Source of the DNA: an uncultured SAR86 cluster bacterium | Lineage (GTDB): Bacteria > Pseudomonadota > Gammaproteobacteria > Magnimaribacterales > AG-339-G14 | DNA length: 64,000 bases | Assembly (NCBI GenBank): GCA_902526045.1 | Contig: CABZJI010000003.1 | Location: 62,001 to 126,000 of the forward strand | Direction: 5' to 3' | Shown here: positions 10,701 to 29,900 of the stretch, piece after piece | Numbering within the stretch: position 1 is the first letter of the stretch | How the letters are laid out: each line of letters begins with the position of its first letter | Notes under the pieces: model-generated | What the model saw: the letters and a program-made list of their open reading frames with translations, nothing else | Database searches by the model: none | Told to the model about the DNA's origin: nothing | Made by a program: the position numbers and the translations under genes

Positions 10701-12473
10701 ATGGAAGCCAATCAAATTTTACTCTCATTCATACTTTTAATTATGGTTGGTATGTTTATTTGGGGTAGATTCCGCTACGATGCTGTGGCTTTGACAAGCC
10801 TTGCTATCCTTGTTGTACTTGGATTTGTTCCAGCAAAGGAGGCATTTATAGGTTTTGGTCATCCCGCAGTAATCACAGTTGCTCTTGTTTTGCTTATTAG
10901 TAAGGGTCTTGAAGCTTCTGGATTGATTGGAAAAATAGGTAATACTCTGCAGAAAGTTGCCAAAAGTGAATTCCAGTTTTTAGTTATATTGATGGGAATT
11001 GCAGTTGTTTTGTCCTCTTTCATGAACAACATTGGTGCCATGGCTATGTTATTGCCAATTACGTTAGGTATATGCCAAAAAATGAGTTGGTCCCCTTCTA
11101 AATTCCTTATGCCTTTAGCGTTTGCCTCAATTCTAGGTGGAATGAATACAAAGATTGGAACTCCACCAAATATAATAATTTCTGAATTCAGGAATCAATA
11201 CTCAAATCAAGGATTTGAATTTTTTGATTTTGCATACGCTGGATTACCAGTCAGTATTGGAGGAGTTATTTTTATTTCTTTGCTGGGATTTGTTCTTGTA
11301 AAAAATAGATCTGGTGAGAATAATTCATCCTCGTTAGTTGATATCAACGAATACTTAGTAGAGTTAGTAATTGACAAAGATAGTAACCTTATAGGTAAAA
11401 GGACACAAGAATTCAGAAAAGAGCTTGGTGCAGACATAGTGCTCATTGGCTCTGTAAATGAATTATCTGATGCTAGAGAAGTTCTAAGTAACTTTGATGA
11501 ACTTAAAGAATCTCAAATATTACTTTTAAAAATAAATCCAGAAGAAGTATCAAGTCTTCAGGAAGAATATGGTTTATCTCTTAGAACGGATATTAGTGAT
11601 CTTGATTCAACCAGCTTTGGTGAAATTGAGACCATGATCTCTCCAGGATCCAGATTAATTGGGAGAACAATAAGTTATTTTTCAAATATGGTTGGTAGAC
11701 AAATGGCCGTGCTTGGTTTGTGGAGAAAAGGCACAAATTTTCAAGGTAGTCTTTCAAATGAACATTTTAAAGCAGGAGACGTTTTGTTAGTTGCTTCAAG
11801 GGAAGAGCAGAAAGATACAAGCGAAAAGATGCAAGACCTGGGCTTGATGCCTCTATGGCAAAGAGAGCTCGATGTCATTAAAGATGATTCAAAAGTATTA
11901 GTTTCTCTTGGATTATTTTCTCTTAGTTTGCTTTTCGTGATTGCAAACTTTTTAAATGTTGTCATAGCTTTTTTGCTCTGTGTATTAGCATTTGTTGCAA
12001 CAAAACTTCTGAAACCTAATATGCTTTATCGGCATATTGAATGGCCTGTGATTGTGCTTTTAGGAGCCATGATCCCTATTGGAGATGCTTTGTATGACAG
12101 TGGGCTAACAAATATTCTAGCAACTGTAATTGCTACCCAATCTATACAATTTGGACTAGTGGGTACCCTTGTAATTTTAATGGTTGCTACTATGTGTTTA
12201 TCTGATGTTATTAATAATGCTGCAACTGCAGTGATCATGGGACCAATATCGGTCACAATTGCAAATCAATTGGGCTACCCTTCTGAGCCATTTTTGATGT
12301 GTGTTGCCATAGGCGCAAGTTGTGCATTTTTATCTCCTATTGGTCATCAATGTAATACTTTAGTTATGGGCCCTGGAAACTATAAATTTGGAGATTATTG
12401 GAAATTAGGGTTGCCCTTAGAGTTGCTCATCATTGCAATTTCTACGCCACTGCTTCTTATTTTTTGGTTCTAA
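10701..12473 (+). CDS. SLC13/DASS-type anion:Na+ symporter with two TrkA-C-like domains
   Basis: 12-TM pattern, NNIGAMAMLLPI, GGMNTKIGTPPN, NNAATAVIMGPIS, central soluble TrkA_C-like repeats (LIGKRTQEFRKELGADIVLI; LIGRTISYFSNMVGRQMAVLGLWR). Confidence 0.9.
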   Translation: MEANQILLSFILLIMVGMFIWGRFRYDAVALTSLAILVVLGFVPAKEAFIGFGHPAVITVALVLLISKGLEASGLIGKIGNTLQKVAKSEFQFLVILMGIAVVLSSFMNNIGAMAMLLPITLGICQKMSWSPSKFLMPLAFASILGGMNTKIGTPPNIIISEFRNQYSNQGFEFFDFAYAGLPVSIGGVIFISLLGFVLVKNRSGENNSSSLVDINEYLVELVIDKDSNLIGKRTQEFRKELGADIVLIGSVNELSDAREVLSNFDELKESQILLLKINPEEVSSLQEEYGLSLRTDISDLDSTSFGEIETMISPGSRLIGRTISYFSNMVGRQMAVLGLWRKGTNFQGSLSNEHFKAGDVLLVASREEQKDTSEKMQDLGLMPLWQRELDVIKDDSKVLVSLGLFSLSLLFVIANFLNVVIAFLLCVLAFVATKLLKPNMLYRHIEWPVIVLLGAMIPIGDALYDSGLTNILATVIATQSIQFGLVGTLVILMVATMCLSDVINNAATAVIMGPISVTIANQLGYPSEPFLMCVAIGASCAFLSPIGHQCNTLVMGPGNYKFGDYWKLGLPLELLIIAISTPLLLIFWF

Positions 12474-12718
12474 TTTCCTTGGATAATTGTACCTCTAATA
12501 AAAAGTTCGTAATAGCGTGAGCAGTTATAGTTCCTAATTTCTATCAACATATCCAAATATTTTTGCTTTTCGGTATCTAAAGTGGATCTATGATCTAAAT
12601 AGCATGCGTCAAATTCATCTAGATCATAAAAAGAATTTTTTACTACCTTATCGAAGGTGCATGAAAATAAAAAAATGGATAGAGAAAGGATCAGATAATT
12701 ATTGATTCTCATCTGCAT
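12470..12718 (-). CDS. Small putative lipoprotein
   Basis: LILSLSIFLFSC lipobox; 82 aa; overlaps the channel gene. Confidence 0.5.
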   Translation of the reverse strand: MQMRINNYLILSLSIFLFSCTFDKVVKNSFYDLDEFDACYLDHRSTLDTEKQKYLDMLIEIRNYNCSRYYELFIRGTIIQGN

Positions 12719-13424
12719 TCAACTGACCGCTGCTGGATTTTTGAGACATTACATCAACAATAATACCAATAACCATATTCAACATAATAACTGCGTTGAG
12801 AAGAATGAAGCTGATGAAGTATAACCATACCCAAGGAAATACTTCGATAATATCATTCATGACAGCAGCCCAGTCATCATAAGTGGCAACCTGTGCAAGT
12901 GTAAGCATAGCCAGGCCAATGTTACCCCAATGCTCTGGATCAGTTGTTCCAAAAACTAAAGTTCCAATCGCTGCCCATATGTAGATAAAAATGAACATTA
13001 AAAGAGCCACAAAACCGACTCTAGGAAGAGTTTCAAACAAAGCATCTACAATTTTCTTCAATGCTGGTACAACAGTAATAATTCTTAGAACCCTTACGAT
13101 TCTGAGCAATCTTGCAACAAAAGCTGTTTCTCCTCCAGTGATAGGAATTAGGCTAACCGTCACGATAATAAAATCAAAAACATTCCAACCGCCTTTGAAG
13201 AATTTAAACAAGGATCTTTCAGCAACTATTCTTATGATAATTTCAATTAGAAAAAAGATTGTAATCGCTGTATCTAAAAAATTCAGTAACTCGACATAGT
13301 CTTCTGAAAGATCATAAGAGCTAACACCAGCATAAATTGCTGAGCCAATTATTACGAAAATTACGATTCCATTAAAAAAACGACTGTTTCTAATTTTTAA
13401 GAAAAATTGAACTATCTGATTCAT
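12699..13424 (-). CDS. Voltage-gated cation channel of the bacterial NaChBac/NavMs family
   Basis: S4-like ARLLRIVRVLRIITVV; pore LTLAQVATYDDWAAVM; S6 FILLNAVIMLNMVIGIIVDVM; single six-TM unit. Confidence 0.9.
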   Translation of the reverse strand: MNQIVQFFLKIRNSRFFNGIVIFVIIGSAIYAGVSSYDLSEDYVELLNFLDTAITIFFLIEIIIRIVAERSLFKFFKGGWNVFDFIIVTVSLIPITGGETAFVARLLRIVRVLRIITVVPALKKIVDALFETLPRVGFVALLMFIFIYIWAAIGTLVFGTTDPEHWGNIGLAMLTLAQVATYDDWAAVMNDIIEVFPWVWLYFISFILLNAVIMLNMVIGIIVDVMSQKSSSGQLNADENQ

Positions 13425-13456
13425 TTGCGGATTATATACTCAAGTAAATTTTAAAG

Positions 13457-14779
13457 TTAATTATTTAAACAAAGATAAGAAAGGTTAATACCAACGTCTG
13501 TATTACTTCTGGAAAAGATATCAATACTGCTTCTATTATCAAAAGGTTTTAGAAAAATATTCATGGATAAGCAATTTATGAAGAGTCTAGAAAAAGTTAG
13601 ATCTGAAGATTCGTTAACGTCTTTTCTTGTACCTAAAGGTCCGTTAGGTGCAAGATAGTTTTTAGAAGACCAATCGTAGTTTGAGGCCATCACCCATGAA
13701 TCCGGCAAAGCCATTCTGTAACTGAAACCAAACCCCCATTGTCGAAAAGACTCAAATTTTTGATTTGCTTCATATTTATCGGAAAAAATATTCATGGTCC
13801 AACTAGAATTGTTGTTAGGAAGATTAAAAGTATTATTTACAAAAGTTCCATACCTGTAACCACTCTTTGCATCTAACCCAATAAAATTTCTTTTATCAAC
13901 ATTAAAACCGTACTCAAAAACAGAGCCATTTGTCAAAGATCCAGCGTGATTTACGCTGAAGGCATTAGACTCAAGCAGAGCTTTACCGGACAAATAAACT
14001 TGGATTCTTGTAAAACTCGGTGTAACAGACGGATTTTTTAAAGATCCTGATATACCCTCTTCAACATCTAATCGGCTATTTAATCCAAAAACAAAACTTC
14101 TTTGATCAAATTGTGTAAACCTTGATTGATATGTTGATGCCGCAGCAAGAAAATAATTTATTTTGTCACCCCTGGGATTATTTAAGTTTTGATTTAAAGA
14201 CAAATTATAGTTAACAGAAAATTTTGAATCAGATTTTGGTTTTGAATCAGGAGATACTTCTAAGGGAAATCCAGCAATTTCAATAATGTCTGCATCTATA
14301 CCTGCATTTGCGTTGCTCGAGCTAGCAAATCCAAATGTCATTAATTGATTTATTGTAAGAAGCTTTTCTTGTTCCTCAATAGCTGCTAAAAAAGATTCAA
14401 CTTTTGAAATTACTTCTTCTGGTGGATCATAATCTTTGACGCTATCAAGATATAACTTTGCTGGGGCATAGGCTTCTAATCTAAAGTACAAAACGCCTAG
14501 CTCTAACCTAATCCTTGCAAGTGTAGGATCATAAATCAACATTTGTTCGAATACTCCAATTGCTGCCTCTAAATCTCCAAGAATGATTGAAAGATTTGCA
14601 TATTTAAATAAATTACCCTGATCTGTTGGATTCTCAATTAACTTATCAAAAATAGCTTGCCTTTCTTTTCTTATGGTTTCTAATTGCTGAGGATCCGATA
14701 TAGTTGGGGGCACGTTCTGAGTAAATGCAAAAACGCTATAACAAAAGATAAATAGTAATAAAATATATCTACTGGACAT
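13457..14779 (-). CDS. TPR plus outer-membrane beta-barrel protein (Slam/DUF560-like)
   Basis: N-terminal signal peptide, TPR-like LSIILGDLEAAIGVFEQMLIYDPTLARIRLELGVLYFRLEAYAPAKLYLD, then alternating beta-barrel-like strands to the C-terminus. Confidence 0.65.
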   Translation of the reverse strand: MSSRYILLLFIFCYSVFAFTQNVPPTISDPQQLETIRKERQAIFDKLIENPTDQGNLFKYANLSIILGDLEAAIGVFEQMLIYDPTLARIRLELGVLYFRLEAYAPAKLYLDSVKDYDPPEEVISKVESFLAAIEEQEKLLTINQLMTFGFASSSNANAGIDADIIEIAGFPLEVSPDSKPKSDSKFSVNYNLSLNQNLNNPRGDKINYFLAAASTYQSRFTQFDQRSFVFGLNSRLDVEEGISGSLKNPSVTPSFTRIQVYLSGKALLESNAFSVNHAGSLTNGSVFEYGFNVDKRNFIGLDAKSGYRYGTFVNNTFNLPNNNSSWTMNIFSDKYEANQKFESFRQWGFGFSYRMALPDSWVMASNYDWSSKNYLAPNGPLGTRKDVNESSDLTFSRLFINCLSMNIFLKPFDNRSSIDIFSRSNTDVGINLSYLCLNN

Positions 14780-14816: not shown

Positions 14817-17000
14817 ATGAAAAACATTCAAAAAAAATTACTTCTGCCTTTAGCAATTCTGATTGGGATGATTCCTCTTGCAAATCCATTAAATATCTTT
14901 GATGATTTAAGATTGTTTGCTTTTGATACCTTGCAGCAAATTAGTCCAAGAGAACCTATTGAGGATGATCCAATTCTTATAATTGATATCGATGATGAAT
15001 CACTTTCAAACTTAGGTCAGTGGCCTTGGCCAAGGAATTTGCTATCTAAGTTAGTGGAAAATACTGAGCTTGCTTTGACAACCTCCTTTGACATTGTTTT
15101 TGGTGAAAGAGATAGGACTGGAAGTGATGTGCTAACTGAACAATATTCCACCAGTTCAAATCTTGTTAAAGAATTAAAAAAAATAAAGCCTAATGACGAA
15201 GTTTTTGCGGAATCAATGGAGTCACATACAACTGTAGTTCTTGGAAGTGCTCCAAATAACAAATTAGTTAATGAGTATATAGGACCAAAATTTGGACTAA
15301 TCATACAAGGTGATTCTCCAAAACAATTTCTTCCTAATTACACAGGAATACAAAATAATTTACCCTCTTTAATGGATTCTGCTGCAGGTATCGGTTCAAT
15401 GAGTATTGGAGGCGAATCTAGTGTTGTACGAAGCCTTCCCACGTTTGAAGTTGTCAATGGACAAATAGTGCCCTCTTTGATGCTTGAAACACTTAGAGTT
15501 GCTATAGGAGCAAGTACCTATCAAATAAAGTCTTCAAATGCTTCAGGAGAATTAGCTTTTGGTGAAAATACCGGGATTAATAATATTAAATTAGGGAATG
15601 TCATAATTCCGACCAATGCAAATGGCTACCTTTGGTTACATTCAACTTATAAGGAGAATTTAAATATTGTCCCTGCTTTTGATGTTATCGAAGATAAGTT
15701 TGATAAAGAATTTTTCGTTGGAAAAATTGTATTAATTGGAACTAGTGCATCTGGCTTACTTGATATCAGAAATACAGCTCTAGAAAAGGATATTCCTGGA
15801 GTGACTGTCATAGCTCAAGGTATTCAACAAATTCTAAATGGAGATTTTTTGGTCAGACCGGATTGGATGGAAGGAGCAGAATTCTTATTTGGATTATTTT
15901 TTTCTATTTTCATCTGCCTAATTATTCAATATTTTGGGCCAATCGGGGGTTTAATCACTTTCTCGATTGCAAATTTAAGTAGTCTTTTTGGCTCATTTTA
16001 TGGATTTAATAATCTGAATCTTTTAATTGATCCAATTTCTCCGTTGATTATTTGTTTAATGAGTTATCTGATAATAACGTTTTTTAATTTCCTTTTTACT
16101 GAATTAGAAAGAAGTAAAGTTAGGACAGCTTTTTCTCAATATTTAGCTCCAGAGATGGTTTCAAGACTTGCTGAATCGAGCGAATCTTTAAAACTTGGTG
16201 GCGAGAGGAAGAATATGACCTTTCTTTTCTCAGATATCAGAGGTTTTACAGCTATTTCAGAAAGCTATAAATCTAATCCAGAAGAATTAACGGATTTGAT
16301 TAATAATTTACTAACTGTTTTATCCAATGAAATCTTAAAAAATAATGGAACAATTGATAAATACATGGGTGATTGTATTATGGCTTTTTGGAACGCACCA
16401 ACAGATCAAATTGATCACTCAGACTTAGCTCTAAAAGCTTCATTTGATATGGAGAAAGCTCTTCATGAATTTAATATTAATTTCAAAGAGGATAAAGGAA
16501 TGGAGCTGAAGATAGGAATAGGAATTAATACTGGGGAATGCATAGTTGGAAATATGGGTTCCGAGAAAAGGTTTGATTACACAGTATTAGGAGATCCAGT
16601 GAATCTTGCCTCAAGATTAGAAGGACAATCTGGTAACTATGGATTTCAAAGGATTCTTGGTGCGGACACTGTAAATAATCTTAAAACTGATGCTCATCTA
16701 TTTGAAGTCGATTTAATTCAAGTTAAAGGAAAAAGTGAACCTGTAAAAATTTATACATCGTTTGATAATTTTTCTCTAGTTGATGATGCATTGATGGAAT
16801 TTAAAAATGATCACATAAATTTTCTTCAAAGTTACAGAAATCAACAATGGGAAAAAGCGTTAAATCTTTTGCAAAGATGGGAAGATAAAGTAAAGGAGTT
16901 TGATTTATACTACGCTATTTTTAAGGACAGAATTAAAGATTTAGAAGTCAATTTAGTCGATCCAAACTGGAATGGAGCATATGTCGCAACAACAAAATAA
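14817..17000 (+). CDS. CHASE2-domain class III adenylate cyclase
   Basis: CHASE2 N-terminus (DDPILIIDIDDESLSNLGQWPWPR), TM segments, catalytic FLFSDIRGFTAISE, DKYMGDCIMAFW, DYTVLGDPVNLASRLEG. Confidence 0.93.
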   Translation: MKNIQKKLLLPLAILIGMIPLANPLNIFDDLRLFAFDTLQQISPREPIEDDPILIIDIDDESLSNLGQWPWPRNLLSKLVENTELALTTSFDIVFGERDRTGSDVLTEQYSTSSNLVKELKKIKPNDEVFAESMESHTTVVLGSAPNNKLVNEYIGPKFGLIIQGDSPKQFLPNYTGIQNNLPSLMDSAAGIGSMSIGGESSVVRSLPTFEVVNGQIVPSLMLETLRVAIGASTYQIKSSNASGELAFGENTGINNIKLGNVIIPTNANGYLWLHSTYKENLNIVPAFDVIEDKFDKEFFVGKIVLIGTSASGLLDIRNTALEKDIPGVTVIAQGIQQILNGDFLVRPDWMEGAEFLFGLFFSIFICLIIQYFGPIGGLITFSIANLSSLFGSFYGFNNLNLLIDPISPLIICLMSYLIITFFNFLFTELERSKVRTAFSQYLAPEMVSRLAESSESLKLGGERKNMTFLFSDIRGFTAISESYKSNPEELTDLINNLLTVLSNEILKNNGTIDKYMGDCIMAFWNAPTDQIDHSDLALKASFDMEKALHEFNINFKEDKGMELKIGIGINTGECIVGNMGSEKRFDYTVLGDPVNLASRLEGQSGNYGFQRILGADTVNNLKTDAHLFEVDLIQVKGKSEPVKIYTSFDNFSLVDDALMEFKNDHINFLQSYRNQQWEKALNLLQRWEDKVKEFDLYYAIFKDRIKDLEVNLVDPNWNGAYVATTK

Positions 17001-17724
17001 AATATTTCTTCTTTTTTTGCTTCTACCTTCGATTGCCTTATCACAGACTATTGTGAACATAGAAGAGCTAAGGAATGAAGGTAAAGAAGGTTTTTTTGCG
17101 GGGTTAGGCTTTGCTCTTAATGCCTCAAGAGGTAATAAAGATAGAGATTTCTATTCATTAGATTTGAGATTTGACTACAATTTAGATGATCTAGAAAACT
17201 TCATGATACTGAGAAAATCTGAGAGAAAAATAAATCAAAATGTAACGGACATTTCTCAACTGATTCATATCAGATCAGTATTTGATACTTACAATCAATA
17301 CAATACTGAGTTTTTTATCCAATCAGCTAAAAATCCATTTAGGTTATTTAGAGAAAGGAACTTATTGGGTACAGGCCTTAGGATGATCATCGACGATCAG
17401 ATGAGATTTGGAGCAGGTGTCATTTATGAAGAGGAAACTGACCTTGAAAATTTAGTAACCGATACAACAAGATTTTCAGCCTATTTTCATGATAACTTTG
17501 AAGTTGCAGAAAATATAAATTTTAATACCACGATTTACTATCAACCTGGAGTGTCAGATTTTAGTGACTACAAAGCAAGCTTTCTTATGGCATTTAGCTT
17601 CAAAGTAAATGAAAAATTCAATATAAGCCTGCAATATGATATTGCTTATGATTCCGATCCAATAAAAAATGCTGTGAAAGACGATCAAGGATTAAGTACT
17701 AAATTTTCCTATTCGTTTAACTAA
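16972..17724 (+). CDS. Outer-membrane beta-barrel protein (DUF481-like)
   Basis: Signal peptide (IFLLFLLLPSIALS) and alternating beta-strand pattern; overlaps the cyclase gene by 29 nt; alternative ATG at 16981. Confidence 0.55.
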   Translation: MEHMSQQQNKIFLLFLLLPSIALSQTIVNIEELRNEGKEGFFAGLGFALNASRGNKDRDFYSLDLRFDYNLDDLENFMILRKSERKINQNVTDISQLIHIRSVFDTYNQYNTEFFIQSAKNPFRLFRERNLLGTGLRMIIDDQMRFGAGVIYEEETDLENLVTDTTRFSAYFHDNFEVAENINFNTTIYYQPGVSDFSDYKASFLMAFSFKVNEKFNISLQYDIAYDSDPIKNAVKDDQGLSTKFSYSFN

Positions 17725-18734
17725 CCTGTTCTATCAATACTAATTTTTTCTAGTTCTTCAAAAAGGTTAGGATACTCCTCCATCAAATCTTCTAGATCTT
17801 CTTTTGATAAAGAAAGCAATTTAACTTCTTCCAAAGAACTTATGGAGGCATTACGTAATTCTTTGGAAAGTATTCCCTTTTCTCCAAAGTAATCACCCTG
17901 CCCTAAAGTTACAGGAGATTCTATCTCTACCTGCACTGATCCAAATTCAATAATATACATACAATCTGCAGCATCGCCTTTCTCAATAATTTTCCGTTTT
18001 GCTGGATAAATTTCAGCAACTAACTTGTCATTAATTTTACTTAGCGCCCCTATTGGCAACATTGAAAATAACGGAATACTTGAAATTGTTTCCATAGTTA
18101 TAAGAAAGTTTCTTTTTTGTATTTCCTCGTAATAAGCCGAAGCTAAAATGGCAGCTGGCAGTGCAAACATTCCAATGCCCAAGAACATAGTCATTGATGT
18201 TAAAACTTGCCCTAAAGGAGATGATGGGGTTACGTCTCCGTAACCAACAGTAGTCAATGTTGCAATTCCAAACCACATTGAACTGACAATTGAGCCAAAA
18301 TATTCTGGATTGATATCTCGTTCAATAAAATGAATTAGGGTCGAGAAAATCAATAAGACAGAAAAAACCATTATTTGAGAGCCCAGTAAAGCTAGTCGCT
18401 GATTGTAAACTGTCCTCAATAATGTGTTGGTAGGAAGTAACATTTTATGATTACTGTAAATTGAATAAGCTCTGAAGATTCTTAAAATTCTTAAATCGTA
18501 AAATCCAAAAAAGATATAGTTTGCAAGCACTATAAAATCGAAAAGAATAAGAAATGAAAATCTTCTTTCAATGAAAATTCTCAAAATAAACTCAGCTCCA
18601 AAGAAAATGTAAGAGGAAATTACAAAAATATCAAAATAAATATTCTCTGGAATAAATTCGCTAGAAGATAAAATCTGATCGAAGATATTTAGAAGGATTA
18701 AAATTCCAGCAATATTGTTAATGTATTTGATCAT
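17721..18734 (-). CDS. Six-TM K+ channel with C-terminal cyclic-nucleotide-binding domain
   Basis: Selectivity filter TLTTVGYGD; CNBD phosphate-binding cassette GDYFGEKGILSKELRNASISS. Confidence 0.93.
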   Translation of the reverse strand: MIKYINNIAGILILLNIFDQILSSSEFIPENIYFDIFVISSYIFFGAEFILRIFIERRFSFLILFDFIVLANYIFFGFYDLRILRIFRAYSIYSNHKMLLPTNTLLRTVYNQRLALLGSQIMVFSVLLIFSTLIHFIERDINPEYFGSIVSSMWFGIATLTTVGYGDVTPSSPLGQVLTSMTMFLGIGMFALPAAILASAYYEEIQKRNFLITMETISSIPLFSMLPIGALSKINDKLVAEIYPAKRKIIEKGDAADCMYIIEFGSVQVEIESPVTLGQGDYFGEKGILSKELRNASISSLEEVKLLSLSKEDLEDLMEEYPNLFEELEKISIDRTG

Positions 18735-18822: not shown

Positions 18823-21800
18823 TTAAAAGTTATAACCAATCCTTATTCCATATCTAGACCTTTCTCTAGCCATTATCCTCTGATAGTTTCCTACAGCTGT
18901 ACTTTGAAGCTCTCTATAATAATAGCTATTATTGTCAGTTATGTTTTGTCCATAAAATTGAACAAACCAAGAATCATCTGAGCTGGACAAAGTAATTTGA
19001 GCGCCTAACTCATCCCAAGCTTCTAACACGTCACTTGGAAGATTAAATACTCTTAAATATCTTTCTCCTTGATATGAGTAATCCAAACGATAATTAATTT
19101 TTAGATTCCCAATATCTTGTAAATAACCTATACCAAGGTTAGCTTGCAGTTCAGGATGAAATAAAGAATTACCTGAAACATCACTCACTAAACCTTCACT
19201 TATATCAGAACCAGGAACTAGATCAAATCCATGTAGTTGAGCTAAAATTTGATGAAGACCTGAAGCTCTATTTAATACCGAAGGCAGATGACCATCAGCA
19301 GGATTTTGACCAGCAAATGGATTCCAATAGCTTACTGGTGTAGGTTCTCCGAAAGTTCTGTCACCATGATGCTCAACTGGATTAAAAAATACCAAGCTAG
19401 CAAGGGTTAAACCGTCAAGAGTCGGATTTAAAGCAGATATGCCATCTGCAGGAGTCACTGCAGCGCCAGCAGTAGCTACCTCTTGCAAATAAGTGTTCCA
19501 CATAGCTTGTAATGCAGTTTTTTTAACAATAAAAGTCTCAGAAACTTGATCTTTTACAGTGTGCCAATCTGCAGAACCGGCTCCTCCGGTTAGTTGCAAG
19601 TCTCTATTCACCATGTCTATAGAGCCTTCTCCATCTTTTATCTCAGAAGATGTGTAACTTAGAGAGGCATTGAGGGTAAAACCAGGAACTTCGGGCGGCA
19701 TGTATAGTAAATCAGCCTCTGCACCCATGATTTCAACGTCAATTCCCTCGTTCACAGAGGTTCTATTTTTAATTTGAGTGATATGGTAATTTTCAATGTC
19801 ACTGTAGTAGGCAGAGACATTGAATCTTACACCTTGGTCTGGAAATTCATTTTTAAAACCTATTTCAAGATTATTTACCTCAGAGTTAGGAAATCCAGTA
19901 GGTACGCCAGCAAAACTAATTGGGTCAAAGCCAGGATTTATTCCACCACCTTTGAATCCAGTGGAAAAGGAAACAAACATCATGGAATCTTCATTTATGA
20001 AATAATCTACCACAAATCTACCTGTAAATTCTGAAGTCTCTCTGGTTGTTTCTAATCCAGCATTTCTATAAGCCTCCCCAGGCGCGGGTACTTTATTGCC
20101 AGGAATCGCGCTTTCCGGAACGGGGCAAAAAGATGCACCTTCAGGACAAAATAATGCTTCCCAGACTGCAGCTGAAGTTACCAAGCCACCTGTCCAAGCA
20201 GATGCAGCTGCATCAGTAATATTTCCTTTTGCATAACCTAAAATGTTAAATGATGGATTACTCGGACCAGCCTCTTTAAAATCATCCGTATATCTCATAC
20301 CAAAAGTAAGTTTTAGATCATCTCTAACTTCAAAATAATACTCACCAAAAATTGCGCTTGATTCAATTAAGCTTAAATTTGAGGTTCTAAAAAATGGAGC
20401 ATACAGTTGCGCCCCAAGACTAGCTGCTTGAGTACCTATCATTGCTGCTGGAGGTGAAACAGTTAATGCATCCAACCCCGATGCTACGACATCAGTATCA
20501 TCATCTTGAATATTTTTATAATAATTCATACCGAATAGGAAGTTATGAGGTCCGTCAAAACTTGAAAATAGTTTCATTTCAACTGCGTCTGTGTCAGCCA
20601 AAGCACTATAGTTAAAAGCTCCTGTGGGATAATTCAAAGTATCCAAAATGCATCCACCATAGAAACCAGCAGTGTAACCTTCGACTGAACAATTTGAATC
20701 GATGCTTGCAGACATAGTTCCAATACCACCAGGAGTTACGGGAGTATCGTTAAATCTTAATGTATCTAGCTCAGGAGATTCGTATGCCTCCAACCTATAA
20801 AACTTTCTATCTTTTCTGCTCGCAGCAACAGATAAAGATAGATCATCATTTATTTCATGATCTACGATGAATTGAGTAATATACTCGTCAACAGTATACA
20901 AAGGTTCGTTTCTAACATTCATCGTCCATAATTCTTGAGGAGCTCCAGCTAAACTAGTTACCGGTGTATAGTTTAAAACTCCTTGTGCAATGAGTAGTTG
21001 TTCAACCAATGTTGACATAGGATGAGCAATTTCAAACTTTTGATTTTCAGGCGCTTGCATTGTGCAGCCAAAAACTGCAGAAGGATCTCTATCACACCAA
21101 GTTCCTGATGTAAGGGTTCTTTTAGAATCTTCAATCTGAGCTTGATGAATAATATGAATTGTGGTTTTTTCAGAAGGTTCAAAGCTCAAAGTTGCTCTAT
21201 ATCCCATTTGATTTCGGTTATCCAGGTTATAATCAAGTCCTTCACTATAAATGTTATCTACCAAACCATCTTGCTTCAAAGTTGTTGAAGCAAATCTGAA
21301 AGCTGTACTATCATCCAATGGAATGTTCATTACTGTAGTCGTACCAAATCTTCCATAATCTCCAAGATCCACACTAACTTTGCCTGAAAAAGAAGTTGGA
21401 TCTGCTTTTGCAGTAATCATATTCAATGATCCACCAATAGCATTTCTTCCGTATAAAGTCCCAGCAGGTCCTCTGATTAACTCAACTCTTTCCATATCAA
21501 ATAGTTGACCTGTGTCTAGAGGTGTTACTCCAACAGCCAAGTCATTCAGGTGAACTCCAACTGCTGAATCTGCAGTACCTGATACCGCACCATTAACCAT
21601 ACCTCTTATTTCAATATCTCCACCGCCTTCACCAATATTTCCACCGAACCTCAGGCCTGGAACAAACAATTGCATATCATTAATTCCTTCTATTTGCTGC
21701 TCTAACAAATCATCTCCAGAAAAAGACGAAACTGACAAAGGAACATCTTGTAGGCTTTGCTCTTGTCTTTGTGCAGTAACAATAATCTCTTCTAATCCAT

Positions 21801-21876
21801 CAGAATCTTGAACAAATACGAGGGGTGATGTAAGAAATGAGAAGAATAAAATTAAATTGATTGAGAATTTATGCAT
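18823..21876 (-). CDS. TonB-dependent receptor
   Basis: TonB box-like LEEIIVTAQRQEQSLQDVPLSV, plug VELIRGPAGTLYGRNAIGGSLNMITAKA, C-terminal GIRIGYNF. Confidence 0.95.
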   Translation of the reverse strand: MHKFSINLILFFSFLTSPLVFVQDSDGLEEIIVTAQRQEQSLQDVPLSVSSFSGDDLLEQQIEGINDMQLFVPGLRFGGNIGEGGGDIEIRGMVNGAVSGTADSAVGVHLNDLAVGVTPLDTGQLFDMERVELIRGPAGTLYGRNAIGGSLNMITAKADPTSFSGKVSVDLGDYGRFGTTTVMNIPLDDSTAFRFASTTLKQDGLVDNIYSEGLDYNLDNRNQMGYRATLSFEPSEKTTIHIIHQAQIEDSKRTLTSGTWCDRDPSAVFGCTMQAPENQKFEIAHPMSTLVEQLLIAQGVLNYTPVTSLAGAPQELWTMNVRNEPLYTVDEYITQFIVDHEINDDLSLSVAASRKDRKFYRLEAYESPELDTLRFNDTPVTPGGIGTMSASIDSNCSVEGYTAGFYGGCILDTLNYPTGAFNYSALADTDAVEMKLFSSFDGPHNFLFGMNYYKNIQDDDTDVVASGLDALTVSPPAAMIGTQAASLGAQLYAPFFRTSNLSLIESSAIFGEYYFEVRDDLKLTFGMRYTDDFKEAGPSNPSFNILGYAKGNITDAAASAWTGGLVTSAAVWEALFCPEGASFCPVPESAIPGNKVPAPGEAYRNAGLETTRETSEFTGRFVVDYFINEDSMMFVSFSTGFKGGGINPGFDPISFAGVPTGFPNSEVNNLEIGFKNEFPDQGVRFNVSAYYSDIENYHITQIKNRTSVNEGIDVEIMGAEADLLYMPPEVPGFTLNASLSYTSSEIKDGEGSIDMVNRDLQLTGGAGSADWHTVKDQVSETFIVKKTALQAMWNTYLQEVATAGAAVTPADGISALNPTLDGLTLASLVFFNPVEHHGDRTFGEPTPVSYWNPFAGQNPADGHLPSVLNRASGLHQILAQLHGFDLVPGSDISEGLVSDVSGNSLFHPELQANLGIGYLQDIGNLKINYRLDYSYQGERYLRVFNLPSDVLEAWDELGAQITLSSSDDSWFVQFYGQNITDNNSYYYRELQSTAVGNYQRIMARERSRYGIRIGYNF

Positions 21877-21991: not shown

Positions 21992-23716
21992 CTAATTAAG
22001 ATTTTCCCAAAAGTTTGAATAAGACTTATAAAAATCAGAGTGTTCAATTTTGTCATCCGTAATTGAAGAATCGTAAATCCTTGCATTCGACCTGACGTAA
22101 TCAAATCTCTCAGCAATATTTGGTGAGCCATTTTTTGCAAAATTAATCCAATCTGCGCGCATTTTTTTAGCTAGATCAATATCAGAATCATCATAAGAAC
22201 CATCGATACCAAATAATCCTCCTTTATTGAATAAATATCCAAGCTCGAGAGCATGTGTAGCACCAAGATAATCATTAGGAATATTAGGTTTTTTATCAAA
22301 TTGATAAAGATACGTGGGATTACCGGATAATGAGTGTTGCTTTGCTATAAAGTAGGAAGGAGCACCGAAAAATAAAAATCCCCAGAAATCAGTAGCTGCA
22401 TCATAGAAATTTTCATCCAAACTTAACGCAAAATCTTTCATTCCACTGGGTCCTTGAAATGATAAAGGATCGGGGTTTACAAAGGCCCAAAGACTTTCTG
22501 GCCAAAACTCACCAAATAAATTGAATGTCTTTTGATCAATAATTAATGGAAATAGACTAGTGCCCTCATCGCCGTTGAAACCCACCATGAAGGGTAAATC
22601 ATGAACATTTTGATTTATAAAGGCATCTTTTATAGATTCAGGAAAAACATATCCATCTACAATCTGATTTGTCATCATAATTAAATCCTGATCGAGTTGA
22701 AAATCATCAATTGAGACAATATCAAGGGCAGGTAACTCTCTAAGATCTTTTATGTTGGCATTTGCTCCTAAAAAATATTCAGCTAACTTTATGCCTTTAG
22801 ATTCAGCAGAGACTATAATTCCCTTATCTTCTCTAATGTCGGTAAGAACATTTGGTAGCCCGGTTCCGCTTTGAGCAATGGCTTTATGAAATAATCCTTT
22901 TGAAAGAGGACTTATCATCAATGAGGTAACCGCTTGACCTCCAGCTGATTCACCAAAGATGGTTACGTTATTTGGATCGCCCCTAAAACTTGAAATGTTC
23001 TCTTTCACCCACTTTAATGCAGTTATTTGATCTAAAGTTCCGTAATTACCAGAAACATTGTTTATTGACTCTTTTGATAATTCTGGATGAGCTAACCAAG
23101 CAAAAACACCTAGTCGGTAATTTATGCTCACCACAATGACATCCCCCTCATTAGGAATATATTGACTGGTATAATTACTTTCATGCCCAGAACCCCATCG
23201 CGAAGCACCTCCATGAATCCAAAACATTACTGGTTTATTTGCTGAGCCTCCTTTAGGAACAACAATATTTAGAAATAAACAATCTTCAGACATATCGTCA
23301 TAAGTAAAACGATTAAAACCTGCATTATTTTGAGAATCATCAGATGAAATATCTAAGCCTGATTTTTCTATAATAAGATCATAAAAGCCATTATTACCGG
23401 TCAGTTTCCCATCAGGAGTCAATAATTCAAGTGGTTGCATGCAAGCTTTACCATGTGAACTTGCTAAAAAAGTACCCTCCCATCCATCATGAGGCAAAGG
23501 TTCCTTCCAACGAAGGTTGCCAATGGGAGCTTTCGCGTAAGGGATACCAAAATATTTTATTGTGCCATCATTCTGATCAATTCCTTTGATTTTGCCCTGC
23601 TGAATACTAATGATTGATGAGTCTTGATCATAGGAACAAGAAAGGAAAAAACAAAAAACCCCGATAAAAATCAGGGTTTTTTGTAGGTATTTACAAAATT
23701 TAGAAATTGTAACCAA
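21992..23716 (-). CDS. Type-B carboxylesterase, lipoprotein
   Basis: GIPYAKAPIGNLRWKEP, CLFLNIVVP, GESAGGQAVTSLM; lipobox FLSC; TTG at 23716 gives MVTISKFCKYLQKTLIFIGVFCFFLSC; ORF-track start is GTG at 23755. Confidence 0.88.
   Translation of the reverse strand: MVTISKFCKYLQKTLIFIGVFCFFLSCSYDQDSSIISIQQGKIKGIDQNDGTIKYFGIPYAKAPIGNLRWKEPLPHDGWEGTFLASSHGKACMQPLELLTPDGKLTGNNGFYDLIIEKSGLDISSDDSQNNAGFNRFTYDDMSEDCLFLNIVVPKGGSANKPVMFWIHGGASRWGSGHESNYTSQYIPNEGDVIVVSINYRLGVFAWLAHPELSKESINNVSGNYGTLDQITALKWVKENISSFRGDPNNVTIFGESAGGQAVTSLMISPLSKGLFHKAIAQSGTGLPNVLTDIREDKGIIVSAESKGIKLAEYFLGANANIKDLRELPALDIVSIDDFQLDQDLIMMTNQIVDGYVFPESIKDAFINQNVHDLPFMVGFNGDEGTSLFPLIIDQKTFNLFGEFWPESLWAFVNPDPLSFQGPSGMKDFALSLDENFYDAATDFWGFLFFGAPSYFIAKQHSLSGNPTYLYQFDKKPNIPNDYLGATHALELGYLFNKGGLFGIDGSYDDSDIDLAKKMRADWINFAKNGSPNIAERFDYVRSNARIYDSSITDDKIEHSDFYKSYSNFWENLN
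23653..23684 (-). terminator. Rho-independent terminator downstream of TonB receptor, lying inside the esterase 5' coding region
   Basis: acaaaaaACCCCGATaaaaATCAGGGTtttttg imperfect stem with T-run on the - strand transcript. Confidence 0.75.
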
Positions 23717-26714
23717 CCCTAAAACCAAAGACTTGCGGATCTCTAACAGTAACACCTCTAGTTTGTCCTACTGAAGCATCACCCAGACCAATTCCGGTAA
23801 CATTAAGTTCATCAGTAATGTTTTGACCGTAGAATTGAACATACCAACTATCGTCGTTAGCGGGTGTAACGGTAATCTGTAAATTTGATTCTAACCATGA
23901 ATCAATCTGATCCTCAGGAAGATTAAATATACGTACATACCTTGCACCTTGATAAGCAACATCGAGTCTAGTGGTTATGTTGACACTGCCTGCTTGTGCT
24001 GTGTAAGAAATACCAACATTAGCAGATGAATCAGGATGAACTAATGAATTTCCAGAAATATCGGTTTCTAGACCTTCAGATACTACTGCAGCTGGATCAA
24101 AGCCCATTAATTGAGCCATTGTTCTCATGCCAGCCTGAACTCCTAGAGAAGGTAAATGTCCTTCAGCAGGAGCTAAACCTAATGCGGGAACCAAATAACT
24201 AACTGGCGTTGGTTGACCGTAAGTTCTATCTCCGTGAAACTCTGCAGGTATTAATGCTGCCATCAAATCAGCAGTAGTGGTTGCCCCGGCAGTTAGAACT
24301 TCAATGGCATCCAATCCTGTTTGAGCAGCTCCGCCCGTAACAGTTTCTTGCAACCAAGCACCGTAAACGGCTTGTAATGCATCTTTTCTCATAATGTACA
24401 TAGTAGAAAGTTCGTCTTTCATTAAGTGCCAGTTCTTACTGTCTGGATGCCCTGAAAAGGCTCCATCAGGCTGGACTGGATCAAGCGCCGAAACACCATC
24501 AGCAATAGTTGATTGAGTCATTGCCACAGAAGCATTCAAAGCAAGACCTGGAACTGAGGGAGGAGCGTACAACAACTCTAATTCGAGTCCCATGATATCG
24601 ACATCAATACCTTCATTAATTGAGGTTTTGTTCATAATTTTTGTGATGTGATAATTTTCTGCATCATATGCATAAACGGCACCGTTTAAACGAACACCCT
24701 GTTCAGGAAATTCTGTTTTAAACCCAAATTCAAGTGATATGAGATCTGAGGCTGGAAATATTTGCGGTGTGTTAGGAAAAATTACAGGATCAAGAGCAGG
24801 GTTAAAACCACCACCCTTAAAACCTTTCGATAAATTTACATAAATCAACGAGTTTTCATCGACAAAATAATCAACGACAAATCTTCCGGTCATGGCACTA
24901 AATTCCATATACGGATCCAGACCTGTAGTTGCGATATAAGCTTCTCCATAATCAGGAACACTTCCTAAAAGGGGACAAAATCCTTGCTCAAAGTTTCCAC
25001 AAGCAAAAGCTTCGAAAGCAGCAGCAGTTGGTATGGCTCCTTCTGTCAGAAGATTTACTCCTAAGTCAGTAGCTCGACCTTTAGAAAAACCTAAAACGTT
25101 AACAAATGCAATTCTACTTAAGCTTGTTTTTTCATCTTCATTATATCTAAGACCAAAAGTAAGTTTTAAGTCTTCTCTCGGCTCATAATAAAGTTCTCCA
25201 AAAACTGCTTGCGATTCAATAGTCCCTTTATCATTTGTTCTGTATAAACTTGGATAAAGTTGTGCGCCTAGAGCAGCAGCAGGACCAGCCAATAATGCTG
25301 GCGGTGCTTGAGCTAAGACATCCAATCCACTTGCATATACATCATATAAGGTAATGGAAGCATTATCATAGTAAGTGTAACCGGCTAGGAAGTTTACATT
25401 TCCATCGAATGAAGAACTCACTTTTAATTCAAGTACTTTTGTATCAACGTCTGATTCTGGTCTATCTCCGCCTGTTGGATAATTTATTGTATCCATGACA
25501 CAACCACCGTAAGCACCAAGAGTTCCTGCGTCTAAATCACATCCTGGACCGTACCCTGACATATTGATCAAACCACCAGGGGTGGCAGCAGTATTTTTAA
25601 ATCTTAAAGTTTGCATTTCAGGAGAGGAATAAGCAGACATTCTCATGAAAGTTCTATCTTTTGAGTGAGCACCTATTGAAATATCAATATCATCAACGCT
25701 GTGCTCTATGAGAAGTTGCGTAGTGTATTGATCAACTTGATAGAGAGAATTACCACGAGTATTTACTTGTCTGAATCCTTGAGGAGCACCAGACATATCA
25801 GTTGTTGTAGTAAAATCCAATACTCCCATAGCAACCATCAAGTTTTCAACGTAAGTTCCCATGGGGTGGGTTAACTCAAATGCTCGCTCAGAAGTACGAG
25901 TACAACCCGTTACAAAAGATGTATCTCTTTTACAGTATACGTTACCACCTAATGTTCTGGTTGAATCTTCAATTTCTGCGTTATGGATAATATGGATTGT
26001 AGTATTGTCAGTTGGCTCAAAAGTTAAAGTAGCTCGATAAGCTACTTGATTTCTTCCATCAACATCTTGATCTTTTTGAACAGAGTAAATGTTTTCCATA
26101 TAACCGTCTCTTTTAAGAGTAGATGTGGCAAGTCTCAAAGCCACTTTATCGTCTAATGGAATATTAAAAGTTGAGGTTGTTTTCAGTCCGTTATAGTCAG
26201 CAATATCGATACTTGCATTACCGTAATAACCAGACGTGTCCCCTTTTGCAGTAATCATGTTGATGGCGCCACCAACTGAATTTCTTCCAAATAAGGTTCC
26301 TGCTGGTCCTCTGATAACCTCTATTCTCTGCATGTCAAAGAATGTTCCATCCTGCAAAGTTGTTGAACCTAATGCTAAGTCATTCATGTGGATTGCAACT
26401 CCAGCATCTGCAGAAGCTGCAACGGCTAAATTAGTAATTCCACGAATATCAAATCCACCACCGCCAGAAAAAGCAGTGGGTGCAAAAGTCAATCCAGGAA
26501 CCACAAGTTGAAGATCCGAAGCTTCCTCAATTTGCTGTTCAAGCAAATCATCTGCATTAAAAGCTGTCACAGCCAAAGGAACGTCTTGAAGACTTTGTTC
26601 TTGTCTTTGCGATGTAACGGTTACTTCTTCAAGAGCATTGTCTTGCGCTATCGAATATCCAGTGAAAATGAGTGCCAATATCAATAATGGCGATAATAAT
26701 TTTTTTATACTCAT
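23700..26714 (-). CDS. TonB-dependent receptor, paralog of the one at 18823-21876
   Basis: LEEVTVTSQRQEQSLQDVPLAV, IEVIRGPAGTLFGRNSVGGAINMITAKG, C-terminal GFRVGYNF. Confidence 0.95.
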   Translation of the reverse strand: MSIKKLLSPLLILALIFTGYSIAQDNALEEVTVTSQRQEQSLQDVPLAVTAFNADDLLEQQIEEASDLQLVVPGLTFAPTAFSGGGGFDIRGITNLAVAASADAGVAIHMNDLALGSTTLQDGTFFDMQRIEVIRGPAGTLFGRNSVGGAINMITAKGDTSGYYGNASIDIADYNGLKTTSTFNIPLDDKVALRLATSTLKRDGYMENIYSVQKDQDVDGRNQVAYRATLTFEPTDNTTIHIIHNAEIEDSTRTLGGNVYCKRDTSFVTGCTRTSERAFELTHPMGTYVENLMVAMGVLDFTTTTDMSGAPQGFRQVNTRGNSLYQVDQYTTQLLIEHSVDDIDISIGAHSKDRTFMRMSAYSSPEMQTLRFKNTAATPGGLINMSGYGPGCDLDAGTLGAYGGCVMDTINYPTGGDRPESDVDTKVLELKVSSSFDGNVNFLAGYTYYDNASITLYDVYASGLDVLAQAPPALLAGPAAALGAQLYPSLYRTNDKGTIESQAVFGELYYEPREDLKLTFGLRYNEDEKTSLSRIAFVNVLGFSKGRATDLGVNLLTEGAIPTAAAFEAFACGNFEQGFCPLLGSVPDYGEAYIATTGLDPYMEFSAMTGRFVVDYFVDENSLIYVNLSKGFKGGGFNPALDPVIFPNTPQIFPASDLISLEFGFKTEFPEQGVRLNGAVYAYDAENYHITKIMNKTSINEGIDVDIMGLELELLYAPPSVPGLALNASVAMTQSTIADGVSALDPVQPDGAFSGHPDSKNWHLMKDELSTMYIMRKDALQAVYGAWLQETVTGGAAQTGLDAIEVLTAGATTTADLMAALIPAEFHGDRTYGQPTPVSYLVPALGLAPAEGHLPSLGVQAGMRTMAQLMGFDPAAVVSEGLETDISGNSLVHPDSSANVGISYTAQAGSVNITTRLDVAYQGARYVRIFNLPEDQIDSWLESNLQITVTPANDDSWYVQFYGQNITDELNVTGIGLGDASVGQTRGVTVRDPQVFGFRVGYNF

Positions 26715-26904: not shown

Positions 26905-29900
26905 TTAAAAATTATATCTATACTCTATTCCAGTTACCCTTGGATCTCTTAAGAAATAACTTTGGAAATTACCGGTCACGTCAGTTGAGTTATATTTCCA
27001 AGTTATATTATCCTCATTGAGAGCATTTCTTGAAAAAAATCTGAAATACCATTGATTTTCAACGTCTCCTACCGTTAAACCAATATTTATTTCATCCCAA
27101 GCATCAACCTTACCGTATAAATCATTGTTAAATTCATTTACGTACATATCGCTTTGATAATAGTAGTAAATATTTGGAACAATTGAGATGCCGTTACCAA
27201 TTTCAAAATTGTAAGAAAGTCCTAATGAAGTTGTCATTTCTGGCGTATTAGGAAGACGATTGCCATCAATACTTTGCTTCACGCCTGTAGAAGTTGGTAT
27301 TCCAAGAGCTGATAATGCCACCCTAGACATATAAATTGGATGGCCGTCTGCTTGAGTTGTTCCAGGAACTGGTAACCAAGCATCCAAACTTGCTAAGACA
27401 GCTTGAACTGAATTGACAAGATCTTTATCAGCAATAAAGGTGTTTGCAACACAACCCTCACCTTCATAAAAAAGATCAATACATTTGTAAATAGTATTGC
27501 TGGCATCAAAATAAGGCGTACCTTGAGCTGCAATGTTGAACGGATCAATTGTAAGCTCGTCATCTTGGATTTTTGTGTTTATGTAGGCAAACATAAAATC
27601 TAACCTCAGATTTGGAATTGCAGCAGGAACGTAATCCATTTCTATTTCAGCCCCAAAATTTTCTGAGTCAATATTGAAATTAAAAGTTGTAGTAGCAAGA
27701 ATCCTTGATATTTGCATATCGGTATACTTGTTGTAAAAAATCGAAGTATTCAGTCTCATTTGACCATTGAGCAAAATTGACTTGATTCCCAATTCAAATG
27801 CATCAACTTTTTCCTCTACTGTGTTTGCAGGAATTAAACCCTTTTCATAAATTCTTGGGTTAATTGGAGGATTAATGCCTGCAGGTTTAGTTCCTCTGGA
27901 ATAAGAAGCATACAAAAGAGAATCATCACCGAAAGTATAATCAACGATTAATCTTCCAGCAGTTGTTGTGTAATCTAGTTTATTCTTTTTATATGACTCC
28001 CAGCCAGGAATATTATAACTTTCGCTTCTATCATAGAGCGGAGGAACCAAATCTTTAACACTCATAAAGTAAGTCGCATAAGCCGTTCCAGTTGCTAAAG
28101 CTTGTTGTTGAGGATCTGTAATTAAGCCAGCTGCAGCAATACCACCTGCTAAAGCAGCAGATGCAGCATTAACTTGAGCTGAAACTTGATAAAGATCAAT
28201 GGTTTCTTGCTCACCTGCTCCACAACCGTTTGATGATTGACCAGATAAAATCTGACCGATAACGCCAAGGTCTGGTGCTTGACCAAAAGCTCCTGCAATA
28301 CCCTCAAAACAGTTATATAAATCTCCATCGACCAACAACCAAGGCACGCCAGCAAATGCGCCGACATTTCTTGCTTGTCCATAATTTGTCGTTACGATAT
28401 CGTTAATTTTTTTCTCTTCTCCGTATCGCAAACCAAGAGTAATTCTCAAATCATCTCTCACATCAAAGTAAAGTTCTCCAAATAGACCGCTGGCCTCTAA
28501 TTCATACTCATTAATATCACCAAATGTAGTAGGAACAAAAAATTGGGCATCTCCTAGAAGCGTTAAAGGAGATGAAGTTGTTAGATAACTATCATCTTCA
28601 TAATGACCATAATGATTTACGCCGACTATGAAATTAAAAATACCATCTAGATCAGAACTATATTTAAGTTCGAGATATTCAGTTGCTTGTTCATTACTAG
28701 ATCCGTCAATGAATGAGTTTCTGTTAGTAGTCTGTAAAACATACTTGCCTGATTGACCGCTCAGTCTTTCTACCTGCGTGGGACCTTTTTTTCCGCATTG
28801 ATCTCCAACGCAGTGATCAAGCATATCAACCGAAACTAAGCCTCCAAGATAAGTAAGAGGATCATCAGAAACTTTTACACCAATCAAAGGCTCAACTGCC
28901 AAAGTTGTATCCATTCTTGTGTATGATGATGATTCCCGTGACATAACATTTAATGACACAATTCCATCCTCCAAATCGTGAGAAATATTAAGCTGATGAG
29001 TACCAGAATGCCTATCATATATAGGAGCGAAATCACTATGAGTCTGCCTAAGAGTCATGTTTGCAGGTCTCGGAACATCATTAAGACCAAACGCTGTGTA
29101 AGTTGCTGTGTTTGCACCCAAGGGCCCTGATTCTAGAAAGACTGCTCCAAGAATTCCATTATAGGTCGCCGCTGGATTAGCTATTCCAATTCCTTCGCCG
29201 CCTAAAGCACAACCCCTTGCAATATTAGTATCGGGAGTACAGACATAATTTGTTCGAAGTGTTCTGGTGCTTTCTTCTTCGTGCTCTTGGTACATGTAAT
29301 CAATTACAGTATTTCCAGAATCATATCTTAGAGAAATTCTTCCCACATAATGGTCTCGACCATCAAAAGTACCACCCAATGGTTCATAGAGGTTCTCAGT
29401 AAATCCATCTCTTTCTGTTTGTGTATAAGCGGCCCTTATAGCAAAATTTTCATCTAAAGGAATATTTATTGCGCCTTCAAATGTTTTTAAATCGTATTCA
29501 CCAATTGTAAAACCTGCATAGCCATCAAGACCTGCATCAACGGATGGCCTTTTGGTAACCAAATTAACTAATCCAGCTGTTGTCCCTCTTCCGAAAAGAG
29601 TACCTTGAGGACCTCTCAAGACTTCAACTCTATCCATATCAAACATTGTAGAAACATTTGTATTTTCTCCCCATGGAGATTCATTGATATGTGTTGTGAC
29701 CGATTGGTCAAAAGAAATACCAGTAGCAAGTCTTCCTATACCTCTGATGGAAACTGAGCTACCACCAAAATTAGTCTCTGAATAACTTAGATTAGGAACG
29801 TTAAGCTGTAAATCAGTGAATCTAACAGCTTGCCTTAAAGCGAGGTCATCAGCAGATAAAGCCGAAACAGCAATAGGAACATCTTGCAAGGATTTTTCTG

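Follow-up and report, generated by a model that had tools for sequence, protein, structure and literature searches.

The channel gene and its product

The window analyzed here, a stretch of 64,000 nucleotides (positions 62001-126000 of contig C3, CABZJI010000003.1, in a 1.2-Mb genome of 13 contigs from an uncultured SAR86 cluster bacterium), encodes on its minus strand a predicted single-domain voltage-gated cation channel of 241 amino acids (positions 12699..13424), comprising segments S1 to S6 and a selectivity filter with two consecutive aspartates. The open reading frame (ORF) starts with ATG, and its translation includes LTLAQVATYDDWAAVM. The match to the Pfam Ion_trans family (1e-42), the match to NavRh (5e-63), nearly identical orthologs within the genus and the ratio of non-synonymous to synonymous substitutions (dN/dS) indicate that this is a real gene. 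Its earlier assignment, from sequence alone, to the Nav/Cav family of single-domain channels is supported. Proteins with 93-97% identity are found in records named SAR86 cluster bacterium. The dN/dS values for the four congeneric pairs with finite dS ranged from 0.008 to 0.017, figures that are approximate since dS exceeded 1; the gene is under purifying selection. The AlphaFold2 model (mean pLDDT 89.6) had NavRh (PDB 4dxw) as its top Foldseek match, and a scan of viral sequences for the channel found no relative.

The protein shows the traits of the bacterial sodium channel (BacNav) superfamily: six transmembrane helices, the Ion_trans domain, an arginine at every third residue of S4, a T-x-[E/D]-x-W filter flanked by two pore helices, and an asparagine in S6. 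Across 60 homolog rows, Arg105, Arg108, Arg111 and Arg114 of the S4 voltage-sensor region (residues 101-118; 13071..13124, minus strand), as well as T181, W185 and Asn216 of S6, were invariant. The P1 pore helix, defined from the modelled secondary structure, spans residues 169-180 (12885..12920, minus strand), and S6 with a short cytoplasmic tail covers residues 199-239 (12708..12830, minus strand). About 21 residues follow S6 in the clade of Asp-Asp channels described below, versus about 49-52 in TLESWSM and TFEDWTD channels, so that, judged by tail length alone, the C-terminal coiled-coil extension of canonical BacNavs is absent. The protein contains no cysteine.

The sequence-only reading had taken NaChBac and NavAb as reference channels; the closest solved single-domain channel is instead NavRh, from alphaproteobacterium HIMB114 (46% identity over 225 amino acids). 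Cav3 was discarded as the closest PDB entry, since it ranked first by whole-chain E-value only because its four repeats sum (per-domain scores of 216 bits for NavRh and 93 bits for Cav3).

The Asp-Asp filter, its distribution and ancestry

The filter, TYDDWAA, corresponds to codons T181-A187 (12864..12884, minus strand), exactly where the sequence-only reading had put it. It aligns over TLSSWET of NavRh and over TQEDW of Cav3 domain II, and in the AlphaFold2 model the P1 helix ends at residue 180, a loop occupies 181-184, and the P2 helix begins at W185. These alignments and this layout place both aspartates, D183 and D184, at filter positions 3 and 4, as had been proposed, and rule out that the pair lies outside the filter. 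The acidic residue of NavRh is at position 6, unlike those found here, and the filter has one residue fewer past the tryptophan than canonical BacNavs. Both GAT and GAC are used as codons for the two aspartates, and the residues themselves do not vary.

Among 181 distinct homologs, 52 carried TYDDW[AG][AN] or, once, TFDDWGA, all of them in records of SAR86 and other marine gammaproteobacteria; a few metagenome-assembled genomes in this set bear other labels (e.g. L063, "Flammeovirgaceae"), which are probably mis-assigned. In a tree built with the filter columns removed, these 52 sequences formed one clade with 100% support in the Shimodaira-Hasegawa-like approximate likelihood ratio test (SH-aLRT). 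The filter, for which a survey among marine homologs had been suggested, is no oddity, being fixed in one well-supported clade. This clade grouped with the NavRh-like, TLEGWPD and TFEDWTD clades, and the TLESWAS and TLESWSM clades lay separately; such a position with Asp4 and Gly4 channels is that expected for an AnclNav, in a tree built without the published AnclNav set. The next large clade, which spans many gammaproteobacterial families including Halomonadaceae (Vreelandella), has TFEDWTD and, in a few cases, TFESWAT.

Other SAR86 genomes carry channels with other filters, either CavMr-like (TLEGWPD; L159-L162) or NavRh-like (TLSSWET or TMSSWEN; L031, L032 and L163-L170). The NavRh-like genes, which have a short C-terminus in common with the Asp-Asp channel, form a separate clade (97%). 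An order-wide search returned at most one Nav-family match per genome. Tandem pairs of Nav-family genes, with matches about 70-100 bases apart, were observed in other genomes of the phylum (G593:C62, G629:C22, G650:C135 and G735:C391); filters read in one member of each pair were TMEGWPD, TTEGWPT and TTEGWPS, and such pairs are possible heteromeric channels.

A wider census of 249 sequences revealed two further Asp-Asp filters outside the clade, TFDDWSN (L295) and TFDDWMA (L300), the latter on a very long branch and with few S4 arginines. A common origin for every Asp-Asp filter was rejected (approximately unbiased test, p 0.00016), and the position of both sequences indicates that the pair arose more than once; the SAR86-related clade is the only one in the census in which it is fixed. 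TFDDWGA (L158) was considered as an evolutionary intermediate and discarded: being nested inside the TYDDW clade, it is likelier to represent a reversal.

The comparison with TLESW, in which both Glu and Ser would have been replaced by Asp, proved to be the wrong one. In the nearest relatives the filter is TFEDWTD, which makes inheritance of Asp4 probable, and comparison with adjacent clades suggests, by parsimony, that only the change from Glu3 to Asp is new and that Asp7 was lost; position 7 is Ala or Asn throughout the clade, Asp being absent. Likewise, an aromatic residue at position 2 is usual for this lineage, and Tyr2, previously regarded as unusual, would be a mild change from Phe. Ancestor-like BacNavs (NavPp, TLEDWTD, and Halomonas and Teredinibacter homologs; PMC7041947) share Asp4 with the clade, which differs from them in having Asp3 rather than Glu3, Tyr2, no Asp7, and a tail of about 21 rather than about 52 residues after S6.

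Genomic context and its conservation

Upstream of the channel, after a gap of 32 nucleotides (13425..13456), lies a gene for a 440-amino-acid tetratricopeptide repeat (TPR) and putative outer-membrane protein (13457..14779, minus strand), with which the channel gene probably forms an operon; a weak resemblance to SlipAM was found for this protein in a relative. A class III nucleotide cyclase with a CHASE2 domain (14817..17000, plus strand; motifs FSDIRGFT, GDCIMAFW and VNLASRL) and a putative outer-membrane protein of the DUF481 family (16972..17724, plus strand) are divergent from the TPR-channel pair and convergent with a K+ channel gene (17721..18734, minus strand). The K+ channel has a TTVGYGD filter and a C-terminal cyclic-nucleotide-binding domain, and matches MloK1 (PDB 2zd9) at 2e-43; unlike MloK1, it is encoded near a cyclase and the Asp-Asp channel. 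Typical class III motifs are retained in the cyclases of related loci, as is TTVGYGD in the K+ channels; several of these channels also have a clear phosphate-binding cassette, e.g. FFGEMGLLGNAPRNATI. Further out, a CitMHS-type permease with a TrkA_C domain (10701-12473, plus strand) recurs next to the locus in families f1-f3. Beyond the K+ channel, ORFs named by eye from their sequence include three large TonB-receptor-like ones on the minus strand (18823-21876, 23700-26714 and 26905-29889), with a carboxylesterase-like ORF (21992-23755, minus strand) between the first two.

The order channel, TPR gene, cyclase, DUF481 gene, K+ channel was kept in 12 loci, one from family f1 and 11 from f2 and f3, which had been chosen for having the channel and the K+ channel on one contig; the f3 loci have an MscS gene in addition. 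In all 11 loci of f2 and f3, a gene of a single family, encoding 2,049-2,606 amino acids, separates the TPR gene from the channel (L218:5273-12208, with equivalents in L219-L224 and L226-L229), where the window has only the 32-nucleotide gap. It is on the same strand as the channel and separated from it by 39-48 nucleotides in 10 of the 11 loci; in L219 a 149-amino-acid ORF was called between the two. Two of these giant proteins were scanned and contained cadherin domains (8e-86 and 3e-79), one of them also with a weak N-terminal match to FecR. The giant proteins contain LDxE 4-9 times and DxD 6-20 times each, and the classical DxNDNxP cadherin motif was not found in them; on the basis of these motifs, Ca2+ binding is plausible.

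Based on a genome scan, cadherin sequence lay directly upstream of the channel and on the same strand in 25 of 27 clade loci outside genus g1, to which the window belongs. The corresponding counts were 0/45 for homologous loci from outside the order and 0/7 for SAR86 loci whose channels have a different filter, with detection by similarity to SAR86 cadherins, which would overlook unrelated adhesins. In genus g1 there is no adjacent cadherin gene, and the source genome has a separate cadherin/FecR ORF of 2,499 amino acids on contig C1 (L239:4943-12442), away from the channel.

The clade channel was present in 57 of the 203 genomes of the order, as assigned by match strength and including two partial channels, one of them without the filter. 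The K+ channel was found in 44 of these 57 genomes and in 4 of the other 146 (Fisher p 4e-28, a value that overstates the association, since the genomes are related); by genus, the figures were 6/8 and 1/14 (p 0.002). The test was conceived once the lists were known, and partial matches are among the K+ channels counted. The Na+/Ca2+ exchanger, considered as a marker of Ca2+ signalling, was uninformative, PF01699 occurring in 156 of the 203 genomes, with or without the channel.

This linkage suggests that the cadherin protein, the CHASE2 cyclase, the K+ channel, the Asp-Asp channel and, in some cases, MscS could constitute one excitability system devoted to contact or envelope sensing, a proposal that we regard as tentative and, as a complete module, rather doubtful. 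Several observations weigh against it. The co-occurrence counts depend on phylogeny. In genus g3 the cadherin gene and the channel are together, while the TPR protein, cyclase, DUF481 protein, MscS and K+ channel are encoded together elsewhere; from this split, the locus consists of two halves. In genus g20 and in genomes G171 and G076 the channel is kept without the rest of the locus; in G076 (L056) the entire block of cadherin, TPR, cyclase, DUF481 and K+ channel genes is absent and the channel stands between ORFs sized like the outer neighbours of the block in L218, apparently a natural deletion.

Such intact channels without the block are what would be expected if the cadherin, cyclase and K+ channel genes were an ordinary envelope island in which the channel merely shares a place. 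This alternative, which concerns the module rather than ion selectivity and whose probability is therefore not to be added to those given below, is a serious one, though we place it somewhat short of even; the identical gene order across three families, and the cadherin directly upstream in 25/27 loci versus 0/52 loci with other filters, argue against it.

Ion selectivity

The predicted homotetramer would carry four Asp183 and four Asp184, forming two stacked carboxylate rings that bind Ca2+. Given these eight filter carboxylates per tetramer, and the same Asp pair in CatSper1, a sperm Ca2+ channel subunit, Ca2+ permeability with a preference for divalents is the best reading, one that we favour by a modest degree. 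The earlier prediction of a divalent-selective or mixed channel was thus a fair one. A review ties Asp at the position following the high-field-strength site (HFS+1) to Ca2+ selectivity and notes Asp at both positions of CatSper1 (PMC10120453), which, unlike the bacterial single-domain channel, belongs to a eukaryotic heterotetramer with accessory subunits. Mutants provide further precedents: NaChBac with LEDWAS carries Ca2+ current (PMC7764494), NsvBa with LDDWAD prefers divalents, with a Ca2+ to Na+ permeability ratio (PCa/PNa) of about 30 (PMC4225499), and NavAb with TLEDWSM showed an about 100-fold gain (PMC10120453). CavAb, the engineered NavAb with TLDDWSD that had been cited as precedent, does share Asp at positions 3 and 4, but its third Asp ring, at position 7, is replaced by Ala here, in a natural filter that also has Tyr2 and Ala6.

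As the sole precedent, moreover, CavAb misleads, since other channels point the other way. NavPp, with its natural TLEDWTD filter, is permeable to Na+ and blocked by Ca2+, and the G4D mutation lowers PCa/PNa of CavMr from 218 to 7.7 (PMC7041947); these data suggest that in this branch Asp4 can fail to confer, or even reduce, Ca2+ selectivity. Native NsvBa (TLDSWGS), with Asp3, is non-selective (PMC4225499). The filter studied here has no acidic residue at position 7, and NavRh, the nearest solved relative, was expressed and yielded no current (PMC4225499). CavMr (TLEGWVD; PMC7041947) would resemble the SAR86 protein as a native bacterial channel passing Ca2+, but it needs Gly4, and its extended loop bears a disulfide (PMC10120453), unlike a protein with Asp4 and no cysteine. 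In view of Ca2+ block in NavPp and of the non-selective Asp3 channel NsvBa, high Ca2+ selectivity is not secure.

The same data define two alternatives, both of which we consider unlikely and about equally so. In the first, the channel would behave like NavPp, its Asp rings holding Ca2+ too tightly and leaving Na+ to carry the current, under modulation by Ca2+ through a low-affinity divalent block. The TFEDWTD filters of the nearest relatives agree with it; the loss of Asp7 and the shortening of Glu3 to Asp, however, are both likely to alter block, NaChBac LEDWAS conducts Ca2+ (PMC7764494), and in NavAb small or hydrophilic residues at position 2 led to divalent block while Phe (L176F) led to none (PMC10349818). 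In the second, a weakly selective channel would pass Na+, K+ and Ca2+ as a depolarising or osmotic valve, in keeping with native NsvBa, with the loss of selectivity in NaChBac E192D (PMC4225499) and with the MscS gene of family f3, but NsvBa lacks the second Asp ring and prefers divalents once it carries LDDWAD.

Proposed role and implications

Taken as a whole, the explanation towards which we lean, by a slight measure, is that of a Ca2+-permeable, depolarisation-gated homotetramer of the ancestor-like BacNav/NavRh branch, located in the SAR86 cytoplasmic membrane and having a role in envelope sensing. When the membrane depolarises, seawater Ca2+ and some Na+ would enter, with a PCa/PNa above 1 and probably of tens at most, not hundreds. 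Most likely it would serve a system that senses surface contact or the envelope, as its electrical or second-messenger output. In such a system, cyclic nucleotide would open the hyperpolarising K+ channel, and the Asp-Asp channel would provide the depolarising entry of Ca2+ and Na+. In the more doubtful version of a complete excitability module, it would be surface or Ca2+ sensing that raises cyclic nucleotide.

Bacterial cadherin-like proteins with Ca2+-dependent adhesion (PMC12153261) and FecR-CHASE2 operons linked to biofilm (PMC5192318) are known, and the passages available from both sources mention no ion channel. Literature searches for SAR86 with sodium channels or for TYDDW retrieved nothing, with thin coverage of subscription journals, and a search for SAR86 with cadherin gave nothing on point, judged by title and abstract. 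What is added here is a natural, clade-wide Asp-Asp filter without Asp7, along with the shortened C-terminus of these channels and the conservation of their locus; the combination of cadherin, cyclase and K+ channel in a signalling locus is possibly new.

Published rules conflict on a filter with Asp3 and Asp4, an aromatic residue at position 2 and no Asp7: charge-count and "beacon" rules would predict Ca2+ selectivity, while the NavPp and CavMr data suggest that Asp4 can oppose it. Rules of selectivity derived from mutants can be tested on natural filters, and a natural channel of 241 amino acids would be well suited to this purpose. SAR86 are among the commonest bacteria of the surface ocean, and a voltage-gated, Ca2+-permeable channel in a streamlined 1.2-Mb genome would bear on Ca2+ and voltage signalling in ordinary planktonic bacteria, for which the conserved locus supplies concrete partner genes (cadherin repeats, a cyclase and a cyclic-nucleotide-gated K+ channel). 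If the proposed excitability system were real, its logic would parallel, in bacteria, that of the CNGK/CatSper pair in sperm.
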